The translations under genes and the position numbers were made by a program. This document shows, piece by piece, positions 53,751-59,739 of a DNA stretch of 64,000 bases. Each line of letters starts with the position of its first letter. The stretch's first letter is position 1. Below the pieces are notes generated by a model. That model was given only the letters and a program-made list of their open reading frames with translations, was not told the origin of the DNA and did not search any database. Where the stretch lies: positions 3,220,060-3,284,059 of the forward strand of contig OU015322.1 of the NCBI GenBank assembly GCA_907163225.1. The letters are read 5' to 3'. This DNA is from an uncultured Rhodocyclaceae bacterium (GTDB lineage: Bacteria > Pseudomonadota > Gammaproteobacteria > Burkholderiales > Rhodocyclaceae).

Positions 53751-54397
53751 TCAGGCCACGCGCTCTTCTTGCCGCGCCTGTTCCCAGGCGTGAATCGCCT
53801 GCTTCCGCGTTATGCCCCAGTGGTAGCCGCCCAGTTCTCCGCTCTGCTGGATGACGCGGTGGCAGGGGATGAGAAACGCCACGGGGTTGGCGCCAACCGC
53901 CTGGCCGACGGCCCGCGCCGAATGCGGACGGCCTACCGCCGCCGCCACCTGCGCATAGCTGGCGACCGAAGCCGGACTGATCTGCAGCAAGGCCTTCCAG
54001 ACGCTGACCTGAAAGTTGGTGCCGGAAACATGCAAGGAGATTGGCGCCGTGCCATTGCTCCCCACTTCTCCGCCAAACATGGCATTGATGACCGCCAATG
54101 ACTGGACTCGATCTTCAAGCAGTTCGGCATGTGGCCACTGATTGCGCAACTCAGCCAGCGGCGCCGCGATTTCGCCATCATCCACAAACGAAAATTTGCA
54201 GATGCCTTTTTTCGTGATGGCAATAAACGCCTTGCCGAAAGGCGTGTCGTGCACCGCAAACCGGATGCGCAGGCCGGCGCCTTTTGCCTTGAATTCGCCC
54301 GGCGTCACCGCCTCAAGATGAATGAAATGGTCGTACAGGCGCGACGCACTGCTCAAACCGAGCGTGTCCGACACTTCAAGCAGGGGCTTCGCCTCGC
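53751..54397 (-). pseudogene. Ada-like methyltransferase gene, C-terminal fragment
   Basis: The 3' part of an AraC-HTH/O6-alkylguanine-DNA methyltransferase gene split by the 5.1-kb element. It begins inside the HTH (AKPLLEVSDTLGLSS...AVTPGEF) and retains the whole methyltransferase domain with the active-site PCHRV near its C-terminus. Joined to the 59529-59739 fragment after removing the element and one CCTCGC copy, the frame runs without a break through LLREAKPLLEV and gives 283 residues, the usual family length. A GTG at 54374 or read-through from the element end could still express the repair domain (up to 207 residues). Confidence 0.88.
54392..54397. repeat. Target-site duplication, left copy
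   Basis: CCTCGC directly abuts the left end of the element; an identical copy abuts the right end at 59529-59534. Confidence 0.85.
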
Positions 54398-54451
54398 TGC
54401 AGAATATCCATCCAGTTGACCACCCAAACCTATCCGACCTGACCGGGCAAT
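54398..54451 (+). repeat. Left terminal inverted repeat region of the element
   Basis: It reads inward as TGCAGAA, then GACCACCCAA, then CTGACC, then CAATC, and aligns to the reverse complement of the right end with a 1-base offset. Repeated TGACC words are compatible with the multiple terminal repeats of IS21-family elements. Confidence 0.8.
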
Positions 54452-54460
54452 CTCACCAGA

Positions 54461-54844
54461 TCACTGATTTCGAGCAACTGACCATCCTGCCGAAACGAGG
54501 TGGTAATCTGAGGCTACCGGAATCAGCTTTTCTTCGCCCGCACCCTTCCGCATCGATTCTCCCTTCAGTTCCATAAAATGCGCCCGACGCACAATCCGAT
54601 CCAGGATGGCATCTGCGACGCTCGGATCGTTGAACAGGTCATGGATGACCATCCAGCTCCTGGATTCCCCCCAATGGACCTGCATTCTCGTGGGCGGGAA
54701 CTCCTCGCCGCGGATGCCGGCCTGGATGTTGCGGATCTCCTGTTTGATGCGCTTCCTGGTATCGGTATTGCAGTCAGGGCGGGACAATAGGGCTTGCAGG
54801 GCTTGTCTCGCGGATTTCTTATCGTCGGCATCTTTGATGATCAT
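54461..54844 (-). CDS. Chimera: NERD-domain N-terminus fused to an IstB C-terminal remnant
   Basis: 127-residue frame. Residues 1 to about 70 (MIIKDADDKKSARQALQALL, later RIKQEIRNIQAGIRGE and GESRSWMVIHDL) match the start of NERD-domain nuclease-like proteins. From FNDPSVADAILDRIVRRAHF to LKGESMRK it matches the C-terminus of IstB, the ATPase helper of IS21 transposition. The join is in frame near 54634. It is probably a deletion or recombination scar rather than a working protein. An upstream extension to 54916 is possible. Confidence 0.6.
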   Translation of the reverse strand: MIIKDADDKKSARQALQALLSRPDCNTDTRKRIKQEIRNIQAGIRGEEFPPTRMQVHWGESRSWMVIHDLFNDPSVADAILDRIVRRAHFMELKGESMRKGAGEEKLIPVASDYHLVSAGWSVARNQ

Positions 54845-54995
54845 CGTGCCAACAGGTGGCTTCTCAACCGCTCGAAAGCGTAGCCCGCCCCATGGGCTCA
54901 AGCATCCCCCTTGCAAGCGTCATTTTGCCGCCCAAGGGCGATTCGAGACGGTCAAGTCGAGCAATCCTGATCAACAGAATACAATCTGGCATGGG

Positions 54996-55937
54996 TCAGC
55001 GGAAATGGCGTTTAACGACCGAAGGCGGAACACCTTTGAGGCGGATAAAGGCACGCCGCATTCGCTCTACGTCCGTGAAGCCACATTGGCGCGCTACAAC
55101 CTGTACCGAGCCGTTGCCGCTTTCTAATGCGGCGCTCGCAGCCTCGACTCTTAGCCGCTCAACGGCCCGGGCCGGGGTTGTGCCGATCTCTGAAGCGAAG
55201 CATCGGGCGAAATGCCTTGGACTCATGCACGCCTGATCCGCGAGGTCGCCGACCGAGAGCGGTTTGTCCAGATTGCTGCGGATGTAATCGAGTAGACCAG
55301 CGAAGCGACCATCGCCCATGCCCATTTCCAGCAATGCGGAATACTGGGATTGCCCGCCTGGGCGACGGTAATAAACCACAAGTTGGTGGGCAACGTGACG
55401 AGCGATCTGCTCTCCGAGGTCATCGGCGATCAAGGCTAAAGAAAGATCGATGCCCGCACTAATTCCCGCCGAGGTCCATAGATTACCGTCATTGACATAG
55501 ATACGGTTCTCATCGAGGAACACGTTGGGAAATCGGCGTCTGAAGTCGGCGCTACGCCGCCAGTGTGTTGTCGCCTTCCGTCCATTGAGCAACCCAGCTG
55601 AGGCGAGCAGGTAGGCTCCGGAACACACGCTCGCCATGCGCCGCGCTTTCTGCGACAGATCGCGGATGAAGGCAAGCACCTCTGCCGAGGCCGTAGCTTC
55701 AATGACACCCTCGCCACCAACAGCGATTACGGTATCCGCATCGAACACTTGGGCGAACGGCATGGTGAGCAGCGTAGTACCGGCCGAACTTTCCACCGTA
55801 CCGCCTTCCTGGCTGACCAAAATCAGTTCATATGTTGTCGATTCCATCCGGTTGGCCATCTCGAAAGCAGCAATCGGACCGGCCACATCCAACAATTGAA
55901 AATCAGGGAATACGACGAAAACCAGCTTGTGTGCCAT
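54996..55937 (-). CDS. GlxA/FtrA-type AraC-family regulator with DJ-1/PfpI domain
   Basis: 313-residue regulator. The N-terminal DJ-1/PfpI-like domain (about 1-170) has the nucleophile-elbow segment VCSGAYLLASAGLL near residue 104-117, retaining the cysteine. A C-terminal AraC HTH occupies about 215-313 (SVGDLADQACMSPRHFARCFASEIGTTPARAVERLR). It is divergent from the PvcA-like operon with 89 bp between starts and is the obvious candidate regulator of it. It lies wholly within the mobile element. Confidence 0.9.
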   Translation of the reverse strand: MAHKLVFVVFPDFQLLDVAGPIAAFEMANRMESTTYELILVSQEGGTVESSAGTTLLTMPFAQVFDADTVIAVGGEGVIEATASAEVLAFIRDLSQKARRMASVCSGAYLLASAGLLNGRKATTHWRRSADFRRRFPNVFLDENRIYVNDGNLWTSAGISAGIDLSLALIADDLGEQIARHVAHQLVVYYRRPGGQSQYSALLEMGMGDGRFAGLLDYIRSNLDKPLSVGDLADQACMSPRHFARCFASEIGTTPARAVERLRVEAASAALESGNGSVQVVARQCGFTDVERMRRAFIRLKGVPPSVVKRHFR

Positions 55938-56026
55938 GGCAGAAAACGAGGGAACTATGTCTTTTACACTGTAGCCTATCCATGCAATATGTCAATGGCA
56001 ACTATTCACAACACAAGGAGGAAGCC

Positions 56027-57247
56027 ATGTCGATGTCTGAACCGCTGTCTGCACCTGTATCCGCTGCCTACCAGCAGCTTCCGGTAGGATTGAGTGGGGA
56101 GATCATTTCTCGGTCCCAGATCGGGCAGGAATTTGTCTGGCCGAAGAGCGACCCTCGTTCGCAGTGGCAGCCGCAGCGTACCTACGGCCCCAGTGACGAT
56201 GCCCGGATTCGGCACCTCGGCATCTCACCCCACTTCGACATGGATGCGTTTTTGGAGCGAACCCAAACATTTGATTTGCCATCGCGGATCATCGAATTGC
56301 TGAACCACAACGCCTTTCAGTTCAATTCACGAAAGAAATTCCGCGAATGCGACCAGTGGCGGCAGATGGTTATGGAGGCTTGCGAAAAAGGTACTCCAAT
56401 TGAGATTCTGATCCTCGCGTTCTGCGTAATCAGTAATCCGACCAAGCGGGTGCAACCGACCGAGGTGACCACGGCAGATGATGTATCACTACTCCACATA
56501 GACAATATTGCTCGCCACATCGCGAACATCTACCCACCGGGAGCTGTTTTCCATGTGATCAGTGATAGCACCTTCTATGCGCTGCCGCTGGGGGTTACAT
56601 CAGTCGAAGCTCAGAATTATCTGGTTCAGCTACGTCAGCGTACCGAAGACCTGCAGATTGCGGACACCATCAAGATTCACGATATTTCCGACTATCTGTC
56701 CCACTATAACCAGTTCTTCCACGAACGGTTCGAGATTTGGCGCGCCAAGTTCCTTGCCGATCCGCTGTCGCATGATTTGCCTGCGGACGAATACCAGCGC
56801 TGGCATGCCAGCATGCGCGCCACGCTCAATTCCCGGCGTATGGGATTCTCCTACGAGCAGTTGGCGGCCATTTTCTGTGCCGATTCCGGCATTTCCCTGG
56901 CTTACCTCGATGACAGTGCCACTCTGGTGCTGGCCGAGTACCGGGCCTTGAAGGCGGCGGCCGCCGATACGAACTGGGAGAAACGCCATTTCCCGAACGC
57001 CATTCGGGCTACGATCCACGCTAAGAAAATTCCGGTTTTAGGTCTTCGCCTGTATCCGGAATACAAGCGGGGCTCCCGTCTCCTCCCTTACTATGGAATC
57101 GCAGTCCTGGTGCCAGGCGATAGTGATGGCGCCGAGCGGATGGAAATCCGGCACGAGATAACCGTGATCGGTAATCCATCCTTCACCCGGGTGGTCGATG
57201 AGAAGGGGCTGACGCAATTCTACGAACCGTCGAAGCCCAGCATATGA
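56027..57247 (+). CDS. PvcA/DIT1-family (isonitrile synthase superfamily) protein
   Basis: 406-residue protein. After an about 85-residue N-terminal extension, the core RIIELLNHNAFQF, ECDQWRQMVMEACEKGTPIEILIL, SLLHIDNIARHIANIYPPGAVFHVISD and NYLVQLRQRTEDL (87-210) follows the DIT1_PvcA layout. Characterised members turn tyrosine or tryptophan into isonitriles using ribulose-5-phosphate. Two usual core motifs are altered here: the 'KSxNP' stretch reads VISNPTK and 'SDG' reads SDS (179-181), so chemistry may differ. AAGGAGG precedes the ATG at 56027. The stop overlaps the MFS start (ATGA). Family assignment is by pattern, not by search. Confidence 0.72.
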   Translation: MSMSEPLSAPVSAAYQQLPVGLSGEIISRSQIGQEFVWPKSDPRSQWQPQRTYGPSDDARIRHLGISPHFDMDAFLERTQTFDLPSRIIELLNHNAFQFNSRKKFRECDQWRQMVMEACEKGTPIEILILAFCVISNPTKRVQPTEVTTADDVSLLHIDNIARHIANIYPPGAVFHVISDSTFYALPLGVTSVEAQNYLVQLRQRTEDLQIADTIKIHDISDYLSHYNQFFHERFEIWRAKFLADPLSHDLPADEYQRWHASMRATLNSRRMGFSYEQLAAIFCADSGISLAYLDDSATLVLAEYRALKAAAADTNWEKRHFPNAIRATIHAKKIPVLGLRLYPEYKRGSRLLPYYGIAVLVPGDSDGAERMEIRHEITVIGNPSFTRVVDEKGLTQFYEPSKPSI

Positions 57248-58416
57248 ACCGCAACATCTTTCTGCTGGCGCTCTCCCAGGCGGCGATGATGACCACGGTC
57301 AGTCTCGTGCTTTCATCGTCGGCCCTGGTGGGGGCTCAACTCTCGTCGCCGGATTTAGCCACCGTGCCACTCGCTGTCCAATACCTGGGGACCATGGTGA
57401 TGCTTTATCCGGTGGCCAGGCTCATGGAGCGCTTTGGACGCCGCTTCATCTTCTGTTGCGGAGCCCTGGTCGGTGCAGCGGGCTTGGCATGCGCAGCTTT
57501 CGGCGTCCGGATTGGCAGTTTTGCTCTGTTTGCAACGGCTGGGTTCTTGATCGGCACCTTTGGTGCGGTCGGGCAATACTACCGGTTTGCGGCTGTCGAT
57601 TCGGTGACTCCGGAAAGAAAAAGCCTGGCTATCTCCTGGACGCTGACTGGCGGACTCCTTGCTGCTGTGGCAGGGCCGATGCTCGCTCGGTGGACGAAGG
57701 ATGCGCTTGAGCCGGCCTTCTACGCCAGCTTTCTTTCATTGGCGGGCGTGGCGTTGTTGGGCGCCCTGTTCGCGACGGGCCTCAGCTTGCCGCCAATGGA
57801 AAGGGCGGAAGACAAGCAAGCGCGGCGATCATTGTCGGAGATTGCCCGTAATCCCAAGTTGACCATGGCTATTTTGGGAGGTGTCGTTGGCTATGCCGTG
57901 ATGAATCTCCTGATGACCGCCACGCCTCTGGCCATGATGTGTTCACGGCTCGGTTTCTCCCAGACTGCCGTGGTTATTCAATGGCACGTGCTCGCCATGT
58001 TTGCCCCTTCATTTTTCACCGGAACCCTCATTCAGAGAATCGGCACCATACCGGTCATGCTATTGGGCTGTCTCTTGAACCTCGGGAGCATTGCAGTCAG
58101 CCTGACTGGGATTGAGTTGGTTCACTTTGAGGCTGCACTGATTCTGCTGGGGGTCGGCTGGAATTTTCTCTACATCGGAGCCACTGCTCTGCTGACCGAA
58201 AACTGTCGCAAGGAGGAAGCTGCCCGCGTTCAGGCCCTGAATGATACGCTCGTCTTTCTGGGCGTCACGACCGCGACCTTACTCTCCGGTGCGATGGTCA
58301 ATGCGCTGGGATGGCAGACAGTCAATCTGTATGCCGTCTTTCCGATCCTGCTCGTCGTGGCAGGGCTCGTTCGATTGATGAATCGGCCTCGTCTCTCATG
58401 GTTGCGCGCGGGGTGA
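57244..58416 (+). CDS. MFS transporter of the element cargo
   Basis: 390-residue permease with 11-12 hydrophobic segments. The loop 2-3 motif is ARLMERFGRRFIFCCGALVG. The ATG at 57244 overlaps the PvcA-like stop by 4 bp, so translation is coupled. The natural reading is an exporter of, or uptake system for, the product of the PvcA-like enzyme. It is distinct from the MFS gene at 50917. Confidence 0.88.
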   Translation: MNRNIFLLALSQAAMMTTVSLVLSSSALVGAQLSSPDLATVPLAVQYLGTMVMLYPVARLMERFGRRFIFCCGALVGAAGLACAAFGVRIGSFALFATAGFLIGTFGAVGQYYRFAAVDSVTPERKSLAISWTLTGGLLAAVAGPMLARWTKDALEPAFYASFLSLAGVALLGALFATGLSLPPMERAEDKQARRSLSEIARNPKLTMAILGGVVGYAVMNLLMTATPLAMMCSRLGFSQTAVVIQWHVLAMFAPSFFTGTLIQRIGTIPVMLLGCLLNLGSIAVSLTGIELVHFEAALILLGVGWNFLYIGATALLTENCRKEEAARVQALNDTLVFLGVTTATLLSGAMVNALGWQTVNLYAVFPILLVVAGLVRLMNRPRLSWLRAG

Positions 58417-58497
58417 TTGATGAAGATCGAGAAACCGCCCACCGAAGACTTTGTAGCGCCCCTCTTCACTCCCGATGCTCCGGATGGAGGCAGCGCC

Positions 58498-59184
58498 ATG
58501 ACCTCCCCGGTAAGAGCTTTGATTTTTGATCTGGATGGCACACTGGTAGATACGCTTGACGGCATCGCGAACGCGATCAACTGCGCGTTGATGCGCCATG
58601 GTCTTGCACCGCTGACTATTTCAGAGGTTGCTGATCGTGTAGGCGAAGGCGGCACGGCCCTGGTGGAATACGCATTGAAGAAAACCGGACACGAAGGCCA
58701 CTCGGAAAGAGTCGCCCAATTACAGGAAAGTTATTTCCAAGCTTATCTTTCCGCACCCATCCATGGGACGAGGATTTTTCCGGACGTGATTCCGATGCTG
58801 GAACGCGCCGAAGCCCGAAACTTGGATCTTGCCATTTGCACCAACAAAGCAGGAGTCCTTGCCGAGGCGGTACTGGAAGGCTTAGGCTTGACTCGATACT
58901 TTCGTTTTTTGGTCTATGGTGACTCGTTGCCGTATCGCAAGCCCCATCCGGGGCCGATTAAGTGGATCGTCGGGCAAATGGGGGTTCCACTAGAGGCCTG
59001 TGTCATGGTTGGAGATACCGAAAACGATGTTCTTGCTGCTCGAAACTCTGGTGTGCGGTCCGTTTTCGTGAGTTTTGGCTACAGCAAATTGGAATCCTTG
59101 AGGAGCCAGCCGGATTGGGTTGTTCATCACTTTGATCAACTGGATCCCATATTGCGTAATTTCGACCGTCAGCGGCATACTTGA
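58498..59184 (+). CDS. HAD-superfamily phosphatase (phosphoglycolate phosphatase-like)
   Basis: 228-residue HAD hydrolase. Motif I FDLDGTLVDT near residue 10-19, motif II CTNKAG near 117, the motif III lysine in RKPHP near 148 and motif IV GDTENDVLAA near 172 are all present, and a Gph-like cap lies between I and II. GGAGG 9 bp before the ATG at 58498 supports this start; an ATG at 58420 would add 26 residues. It is third in the PvcA-like unit. A phosphatase could process a phosphorylated sugar by-product or intermediate; that is inference. Confidence 0.88.
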   Translation: MTSPVRALIFDLDGTLVDTLDGIANAINCALMRHGLAPLTISEVADRVGEGGTALVEYALKKTGHEGHSERVAQLQESYFQAYLSAPIHGTRIFPDVIPMLERAEARNLDLAICTNKAGVLAEAVLEGLGLTRYFRFLVYGDSLPYRKPHPGPIKWIVGQMGVPLEACVMVGDTENDVLAARNSGVRSVFVSFGYSKLESLRSQPDWVVHHFDQLDPILRNFDRQRHT

Positions 59185-59482
59185 GAATGAGCCGGAGCAT
59201 CAAATTTGAACTGAGACGTTCGCGGTTGTGACAACGGTTGTGCTTCGCAGGTGATGTTGGAACCTGTCCAATTCAGGGAGCGATATCGAGGAGCGACATG
59301 CCGTAATAAATAGGGAGACGTGACCATATGACAAATGAGCTGGAGGTTGGCGCGCTCCGCTTCTTGCTGCCTGGCTCGTTCGGCTTCGCCGAGCCGAGAC
59401 CACAGGGAAATCGTGACAAATCACGATAGATGTTTCGTAAAAAAGGCGAAGACAACCTGGTCAGGTTGGATGCGATTGTATG
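59185..59482. other. Non-coding or degraded stretch at the right end of the element
   Basis: No intact gene is seen. On the minus strand about 59340-59400 reads as an Ala/Glu/Arg-rich helix (LGEAERARQQEAERANLQL), like the C-terminal coiled coil of Uma2-type proteins, without start or partner; it may be a gene remnant. Confidence 0.4.
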
Positions 59483-59528
59483 GGTCAGATCCGAGAAGAT
59501 TGGGTGGTCTGTTCAGTGCGGTTCTGCA
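59483..59528 (-). repeat. Right terminal inverted repeat region of the element
   Basis: Read inward on the minus strand: TGCAGAA, then GACCACCCAA, then CTGACC. It mirrors the left end. Confidence 0.8.
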
Positions 59529-59534
59529 CCTCGC
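59529..59534. repeat. Target-site duplication, right copy
   Basis: CCTCGC, identical to 54392-54397. Confidence 0.85.
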
Positions 59535-59739
59535 GCAGCAATTGTTTGGCGCGCTCCACCGTCAGCACCTGCAGGAATCGCTTCGGCGTCACACCCGCCC
59601 AGCGGCAAAACAGGCGCTGGAAATGAAACGGACTCAAATGCAGGTGCGCCGCAATTTCTTCCAGCGTCGGCTGTCTGTCGACCCGGCTGGCGATGAAGTC
59701 GATGGCGTTTGCGATGCGGTCGTAATCGGTCGTGGGCAT
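59529..59739 (-). pseudogene. Ada-like gene, N-terminal HTH fragment
   Basis: The 5' part of the interrupted Ada-like gene. It starts MPTTDYDRIANAIDFIA and runs through the first half of the AraC-type DNA-binding domain (HLSPFHFQRLFCRWAGVTPKRFLQ...AKQLLRE), where the element is inserted. Beyond the junction the frame reads 14 element-derived codons and stops at 59485, giving an 84-residue truncated product. The matching remainder is at 53751-54397. Confidence 0.88.

Follow-up and report, generated by a model that had tools for sequence, protein, structure and literature searches.

A window of 64,000 nucleotides from the genome of an uncultured Rhodocyclaceae bacterium (contig OU015322.1, positions 3,220,060 to 3,284,059) was analysed, and positions without a locus name refer to this window. 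The genome consisted of a single contig of 3,463,890 bases. At 54398–59528 of the window, an element splits a gene that combines an AraC-type helix-turn-helix (HTH) with an O6-methylguanine-DNA methyltransferase. The features of the split gene, the two ends of the element, its remnant genes and its cargo were as follows.

53751–54397, minus strand: 3′ part of the interrupted AraC-HTH/O6-methylguanine-DNA methyltransferase gene, with the PCHR motif (PF01035, 4.3e-30, on 53751–54374; aligns to the gene of genome G029)
54392–54397: target-site duplication, copy 1, CCTCGC (6-bp overlap of the flanks on the empty site)
54398–54490: istB-side transposon end, tip TGCAGAA, repeats at 54416, 54439 and 54478 (spacing 23, then 39)
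54403–54640, minus strand: end region and 3′ fragment of istB (helper ATPase C-terminus; PF01695 positions 200–232 of 238)
54635–54640, minus strand: deletion junction, 6-bp microhomology GACCTG (overlapping alignments to istB of locus L064 and to loci L051/L052)
54635–54889, minus strand: 5′ fragment of another gene (in the relatives G522 and G611, an open frame of 379 codons)
54996–55937, minus strand: DJ-1/PfpI plus AraC-HTH transcription regulator (PF01965, PF12833; closest to the NCBIfam model FtrA, but short of its cut-off)
56027–57247, plus strand: PvcA/DIT1 (isonitrile synthase) family protein, 406 aa (PF05141, 2.9e-15, residues 115–345; start codon chosen by eye)
57244–58416, plus strand: MFS transporter (PF07690, 1.3e-35)
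58417–59184, plus strand: HAD phosphatase, phosphoglycolate-phosphatase-like (PF13419, 1.1e-33)
59456–59528: istA-side transposon end, tip TGCAGAA on the minus strand, repeats at 59511, 59488 and 59464 (spacing 23 and 24; matches the istA-side end of the complete element in genome G658)
59529–59534: target-site duplication, copy 2, CCTCGC (6-bp overlap of the flanks on the empty site)
59529–59739, minus strand: 5′ part of the interrupted gene, AraC-type HTH (PF12833/PF00165, on 59485–59739)

The element opened with TGCAGAA and closed with TTCTGCA, and CCTCGC flanked it on both sides. The left junction read ..GCTTCGCCTCGC/TGCAGAATATCC.. and the right junction ..GGTTCTGCA/CCTCGCGCAGC.., the slash marking the border of the element. 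Each half-gene had an open frame in one phase, and the rejoined gene measured 211 + 647 − 6 = 852 nt, which corresponds to 283 codons plus a stop. Some match to the methyltransferase half was found in 56 of the 60 genomes searched, the own genome included. The closest one (73% identity) belonged to G029, another species of the same genus, in which the AraC-HTH/methyltransferase gene was uninterrupted (locus L009). This match spanned one TGA; the stop-to-stop frame of 294 codons held both the HTH motif and PCHR, and the TGA was thus taken as the gene's own stop. The two flanks were aligned to L009 one at a time, not jointly: the left flank (54298–54397) fell on 2033–2132 and the right flank (59529–59628) on 2127–2226. 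They overlapped by exactly 6 bp, CCTCGC, which was present as a single copy in the empty site. Judging by these alignments, the overlap is the site targeted by an insertion that duplicated 6 bp. By arithmetic, a perfect 6/6 duplication would occur by chance about once in 4096 cases, a figure that is usable because the complete element of G658, described below, fixes the positions of the tips. The GC content of the element (55.7%) was not distinctive against the mean outside it (58.1%, sd 2.6, per 5.1 kb).

A preceding sequence-only reading had given the coordinates, the tips and the CCTCGC direct repeat as they stand in the sequence. Its rejoined frame of 283 residues agrees with the sum above, and the insertion that it proposed is supported by the empty site in G029. 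It had pointed to sister strains as the place to find an intact gene; such a gene was found, in a donor that is another species of the genus and 73% identical in the methyltransferase half. Its label "Ada-like" was loose: the AraC-HTH and methyltransferase parts are there, but the match to the Ada model started at position 85 of 354, which indicated that the N-terminal domain of Ada was absent.

Inside the tips, the repeats of the ends had the form (C/T)TGACC, with the copy at 59511 reading CAGACC on the minus strand; the third repeat on the istB side (54478) was displaced relative to G658. The ends of IS21 elements are reported to contain two or more direct repeats, of which IstA requires two to be complete, together with a terminal CA (PMC10122671). 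The ends of the window element showed such repeats and the terminal CA. A motif built as GACCACCCAA-N(6-10)-GANCTGACC had only two sites in the whole genome, which were the two ends of the element in opposite orientation, and the same motif read backwards as a control gave 0 matches. The inverted similarity of the ends (local score 36) was equalled in 1 of 2000 shuffles and in 11 of 4958 random window pairs. On its own, such similarity was moderately rare and too weak as proof of insertion, and the search was therefore extended to an empty site and to complete relatives.

At the DNA level, the left 303 bp matched 11 of 249 genomes of the family, the own genome included. The best of the others was G658, from another genus of the family (87% over query positions 6–243); window 54403–54640 and the istB-side end of G658 shared 87.2% DNA identity over 243 columns. 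In G658, the element was complete (C21:39970–50856, 10,887 bp), with tips TGCAGAA/TGCGAAA and CCCAGT on both sides. Its end at C21:39970 (TGCAGAATCGCG..) resembled the right end of the window element and its end at C21:50856 (TGCGAAATCTCC..) the left end, and both window ends thus matched the corresponding ends of a complete element. The cargo in G658 included a MacB-like permease and an HlyD-type protein by Pfam, an ABC ATPase and an outer-membrane protein read off the open reading frames (ORFs) only, and at least two unassigned ORFs. The core comprised a repressor that matched HTH_3/Phage_CI, a small protein of the winged-HTH type, IstA and IstB, so that both istA (DDE transposase) and istB (AAA+ helper), the gene pair of the IS21 family, were present. 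The best PHROG of the small winged-HTH protein was a phage transcriptional repressor; we take it to be Ner-like, a name given by no library search.

A second complete element was located on the E. coli IncC plasmid NZ_CP026207.1 (L071 5061–14418, 9,358 bp), with tips TGCGTAAT and the duplication GCTGGC. Its identity to G658 was 66% for IstA, 69% for IstB, 75% for the Ner-like protein and 61% for the repressor. It carried RcnA nickel/cobalt efflux, a metal-sensing repressor, HupE/UreJ, a membrane anchor and TraX proteins, and the same gene set recurred across the record start of NZ_CP026405.1. In both elements, a divergent repressor and a small HTH gene lay directly upstream of istA, a region that we presume to resemble the control region of phage Mu (c repressor/Ner). 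Unlike Mu, the G658 and E. coli elements use IstA/IstB and ordinary cargo, and this region is gone from the window copy. The short target-site duplication typical of IS21 elements was 6 bp in all three cases. From these comparisons, the window, G658 and E. coli elements have a common end design, their own 6-bp duplications and different cargo.

In the window copy, an ORF of 151 aa on the minus strand (54461–54916) resembled the 379-codon frame of G522 and G611 in its first part and the istB of G658 in its second part, and the two alignments overlapped by GACCTG. On this evidence, the ORF is a fusion of a fragment of another gene with the 3′ end of istB, and an internal deletion at the microhomology removed the rest of that gene and most of istB. 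The repressor, the Ner-like gene and istA were presumably removed by the same deletion. The window fragment of the other gene had no Pfam match at E ≤ 1; we assume the gene to be of the NERD type, a label given by no library search. A search of the genome for relatives of the IstA of G658 (E ≤ 1e-5) found none, whereas it did recover this IstA in G658 itself. In 369 genomes of the class, none of them a known positive, a further search with a very strict cut (E ≤ 1e-170) gave 0 matches. Six IstB-family matches occurred in the genome, and only one was full length. It belonged to another IS21-family element (L048 2842–5212, in G000:C1:1453000–1461500), which had 21-bp inverted ends (95%) unrelated to those of the window element. 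With no IstA of the G658 type and a sole full-length IstB in an element with other ends, the window element is probably unable to move by itself. Both of its ends were kept, so it could in principle be mobilised by a matching IstA/IstB in trans.

The window element shared with the IS21 family (IS21, IS5376) the multiple direct repeats at each end, the TG...CA tips, the short duplication and a remnant of istB, whereas it differed in having cargo and in the loss of istA and most of istB. With istA gone and only a C-terminal fragment of istB left, it was classified as an IS21 derivative and not as a full member. The complete relatives in G658 and E. coli have both genes, but they differ from the family in their repressor and Ner-like gene and in their size of 9–11 kb. 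Insertion sequence (IS) derivatives with passenger genes are a known kind, the transporter IS (tIS; PMC9330008). The window element resembles a tIS in having four passenger genes between IS ends; it differs in the absence of a transposase, and the complete relatives differ in their phage-type regulators.

Taken together, the interval was interpreted as an IS21-family cargo transposon that has lost its transposase by deletion, carries a PvcA-family operon and is inserted in the AraC-HTH/methyltransferase gene, and we assign this interpretation a probability of about 0.9. By analogy with the G658 and E. coli relatives, the parent would have run from the istA-side end through the cargo, the repressor, the Ner-like gene, istA and istB to the istB-side end. 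An element of this type was probably inserted into the gene by IstA/IstB, as its ends suggest, with the duplication of the 6 bp that is seen at the empty site. An internal deletion from the other gene into istB would have followed or preceded the insertion, and what was left is the cargo, with the regulator diverging from the PvcA/DIT1-family, MFS and HAD genes. The sequence-only reading had recognised the insertion, while the IS21 family, the loss of the transposase by internal deletion and the PvcA-family operon had escaped it. The inverted similarity of the ends that it reported is moderate by itself and becomes strong together with the unique genome motif and the match to a complete element. 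It had also suggested that the same termini be looked for with other cargo, and the elements of G658 and of the E. coli IncC plasmid are of this kind.

The regulator gene in the cargo diverged from the PvcA-type, MFS and HAD genes. The PvcA-type protein scored 56.9 bits against PF05141 (gathering threshold 26.4), which places it in the PvcA/DIT1 family, and PvcA-type chains in the PDB were matched at E values of about 1e-7 to 1e-6. It shares the PF05141 domain with the PvcA/IsnA/DIT1 isonitrile synthases; in contrast to them, it lies far below the TyIsonSynPvcA cut-off, and its operon has MFS and HAD genes and no oxygenase gene. By family, the enzyme would be expected to make an isonitrile or a related product, which the MFS protein would export, and the DJ-1/AraC protein would control the operon. 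Isonitriles are described as able to bind copper (PMC5974471). A metal-binding role for the product is possible, though nothing in the operon points to metals.

Operons related to this cargo were searched for by scanning genome contigs with six peptide patterns, a scan that detects close relatives only. Six loci were found in five genomes: Thauera butanivorans, one Sideroxydans metagenome-assembled genome (two contigs), Oceanospirillum sediminis, Parazoarcus communis and O. beijerinckii. In the host order, 1 of 399 genomes was matched by a profile of five close homologues (E ≤ 1e-8), and a single-protein search matched 1 of 60 relatives; in both cases, it was the window's own genome. The cargo operon was thus very sporadic. 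In simple pairwise comparisons of the window with the loci of other hosts, dN/dS was 0.07–0.13 for the regulator (6 loci), 0.07–0.08 for the PvcA-type gene in four complete copies of 404–406 codons (0.10 and 0.18 in two deleted copies), 0.09–0.17 for the MFS transporter (5 loci) and 0.22–0.49 for the HAD gene (4 loci), which was less conserved. The cargo is under purifying selection. L036 yielded no HAD gene, L038 had a short one, and L035 and L037 ran into contig ends. Three of the eight PvcA-type copies examined (the window, the six loci and one distant copy on a Moraxella plasmid) were broken. The Moraxella copy had an IS5-family transposase gene annotated inside, and the internal deletions in Parazoarcus communis (L038 8201–8341) and O. 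beijerinckii (L039 8201–8303) differed; the regulator and MFS frames of both loci were open despite these deletions. The operon of O. beijerinckii lay in an island-like setting between duplicated tyrosine-integrase sequences (L039 6500–6979 and 10508–10783). A reading of this locus as a second gene-splitting insertion was dropped, as a 151-nt direct repeat (96%) and a 101-nt one (85%) flank it on both sides.

Several points weigh against the interpretation of the interval as a decayed IS21-family cargo transposon. As to the insertion, the donor of the empty site was a different species with a genome only 74% complete, and the two ends of the window element were only moderately alike. An ordinary rearrangement or an assembly join might have split the gene, with the repeat arising by chance, and the moderate rarity of the inverted similarity would permit this. 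We regard such an origin as extremely improbable: the empty site, on which the flanks overlap by exactly 6 bp, already contradicts it, the ends match complete elements with their own 6-bp duplications, and the genome is a single contig. As to the carriage of the operon, the fetched flanks of the six operon loci (five genomes) contained no IS21-type end that could be recognised, and the homology to the best of them (Thauera) covered 54934–59173, stopping inside the window ends. Transfer of the operon between species by this transposon is therefore conjectural. The operon may move as an independent unit or through a different recombinase, as its place between tyrosine-integrase sequences in O. 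beijerinckii could suggest, and have entered an IS21-type element or remnant, the IS21 ends not being its carrier between species. This we consider unlikely, since the operon sits at the cargo position of the G658 and E. coli relatives and no convincing repeats bracket it alone. A loose direct pair (54968–54990/59133–59155, 74%) and a loose inverted pair (54587–54604/59140–59157, 78%), each with one arm in the HAD gene, were taken as chance.

As to the product, the isonitrile role was drawn from the protein family alone. The PvcA-type protein reached 37.3 bits against the TyIsonSynPvcA equivalog NF045653, whose cut-off is 600, and a substrate should thus not be assumed; its structure model (mean pLDDT, the predicted local distance difference test score, of 38.5) was too poor to help. 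The cargo may make no isonitrile, either with the DIT1/PvcA-type protein acting on a different substrate or with the MFS protein as a simple exporter with its regulator. The weak family match (Pfam and PDB values as above) and the two genomes in which the MFS gene is open and the PvcA-type gene lacks its middle agree with this. On the other hand, the low dN/dS of the four complete PvcA-type copies indicates a selected protein, and its residues 115–345 match the family domain. We hold this alternative to be a possibility of some weight, if the less probable one.

In the usual description, an IS21 element is an insertion sequence of two genes. Here, a metabolite-type operon in an IS21-type transposon offers a readable case, as the empty site, the complete relatives and the deletion joint are all present in sequence, and the complete relatives are cargo carriers of 9–11 kb with phage-like control genes. 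Such transposons with a phage-style switch (divergent repressor and Ner-like gene before istA-istB) may form a recurring class of cargo carriers, for Ni/Co efflux, MacB-type export and the PvcA-family operon, and the window copy may represent decay into a transposase-less cassette able to spread a small metabolite pathway; we see the chances of this generalization as evenly balanced. Among the literature matches listed, with most subscription journals outside the coverage, there was no description of IS21-type elements with repressor/Ner-like genes and cargo, or of a PvcA-type gene or operon in an IS21 element. The PvcA-family operon is sporadic yet under purifying selection in unrelated genera, which makes its product worth identifying.

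Other plasmid relatives (IstA 48%) bore such end arrays too. The P. syringae element (L073 7017–15722) had an array at either side, an additional, nested right end, and passenger genes that lay not upstream but downstream of istB; it was left uncounted, as its duplication was 6 or 8 bp depending on the tip chosen. In P. fluorescens (L045), arrays were present on both sides and no duplication was found. For Citrobacter (L069) and Serratia (L070), the search for arrays detected the istB-side one alone. On the Serratia marcescens plasmid (L070 777–6425), istB-istA of this group lay beside frmR, frmA, a VOC protein and fghA, a group with names from formaldehyde detoxification that is possibly another cargo set; the far end of this element was not found.

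The tip pattern occurred in 2 of 399 genomes of the order, the own genome and G321, and the surroundings in G321 were by eye an ordinary coding gene. The end-repeat pattern also matched at window 3580 (minus strand), L036 10299 (inside the MFS gene) and L038 10209; these were single pairs without a tip and were taken as chance. Viral contigs gave no match to the protein patterns and 0 to one end motif. On an Azonexus hydrophilus plasmid, a solitary IS21-type end (L029 8001–8127) was 78% identical to the left end of the window element over ~100 bp; the 41.5 kb to its right and the 8 kb to its left contained no partner end, and no istA/istB was annotated nearby. Inside the element near its right end, ~50 bp (59358–59408) were hairpin-like by eye and resembled L038 6884–6936 beside the Parazoarcus operon as well as a spot on an Azospira plasmid.

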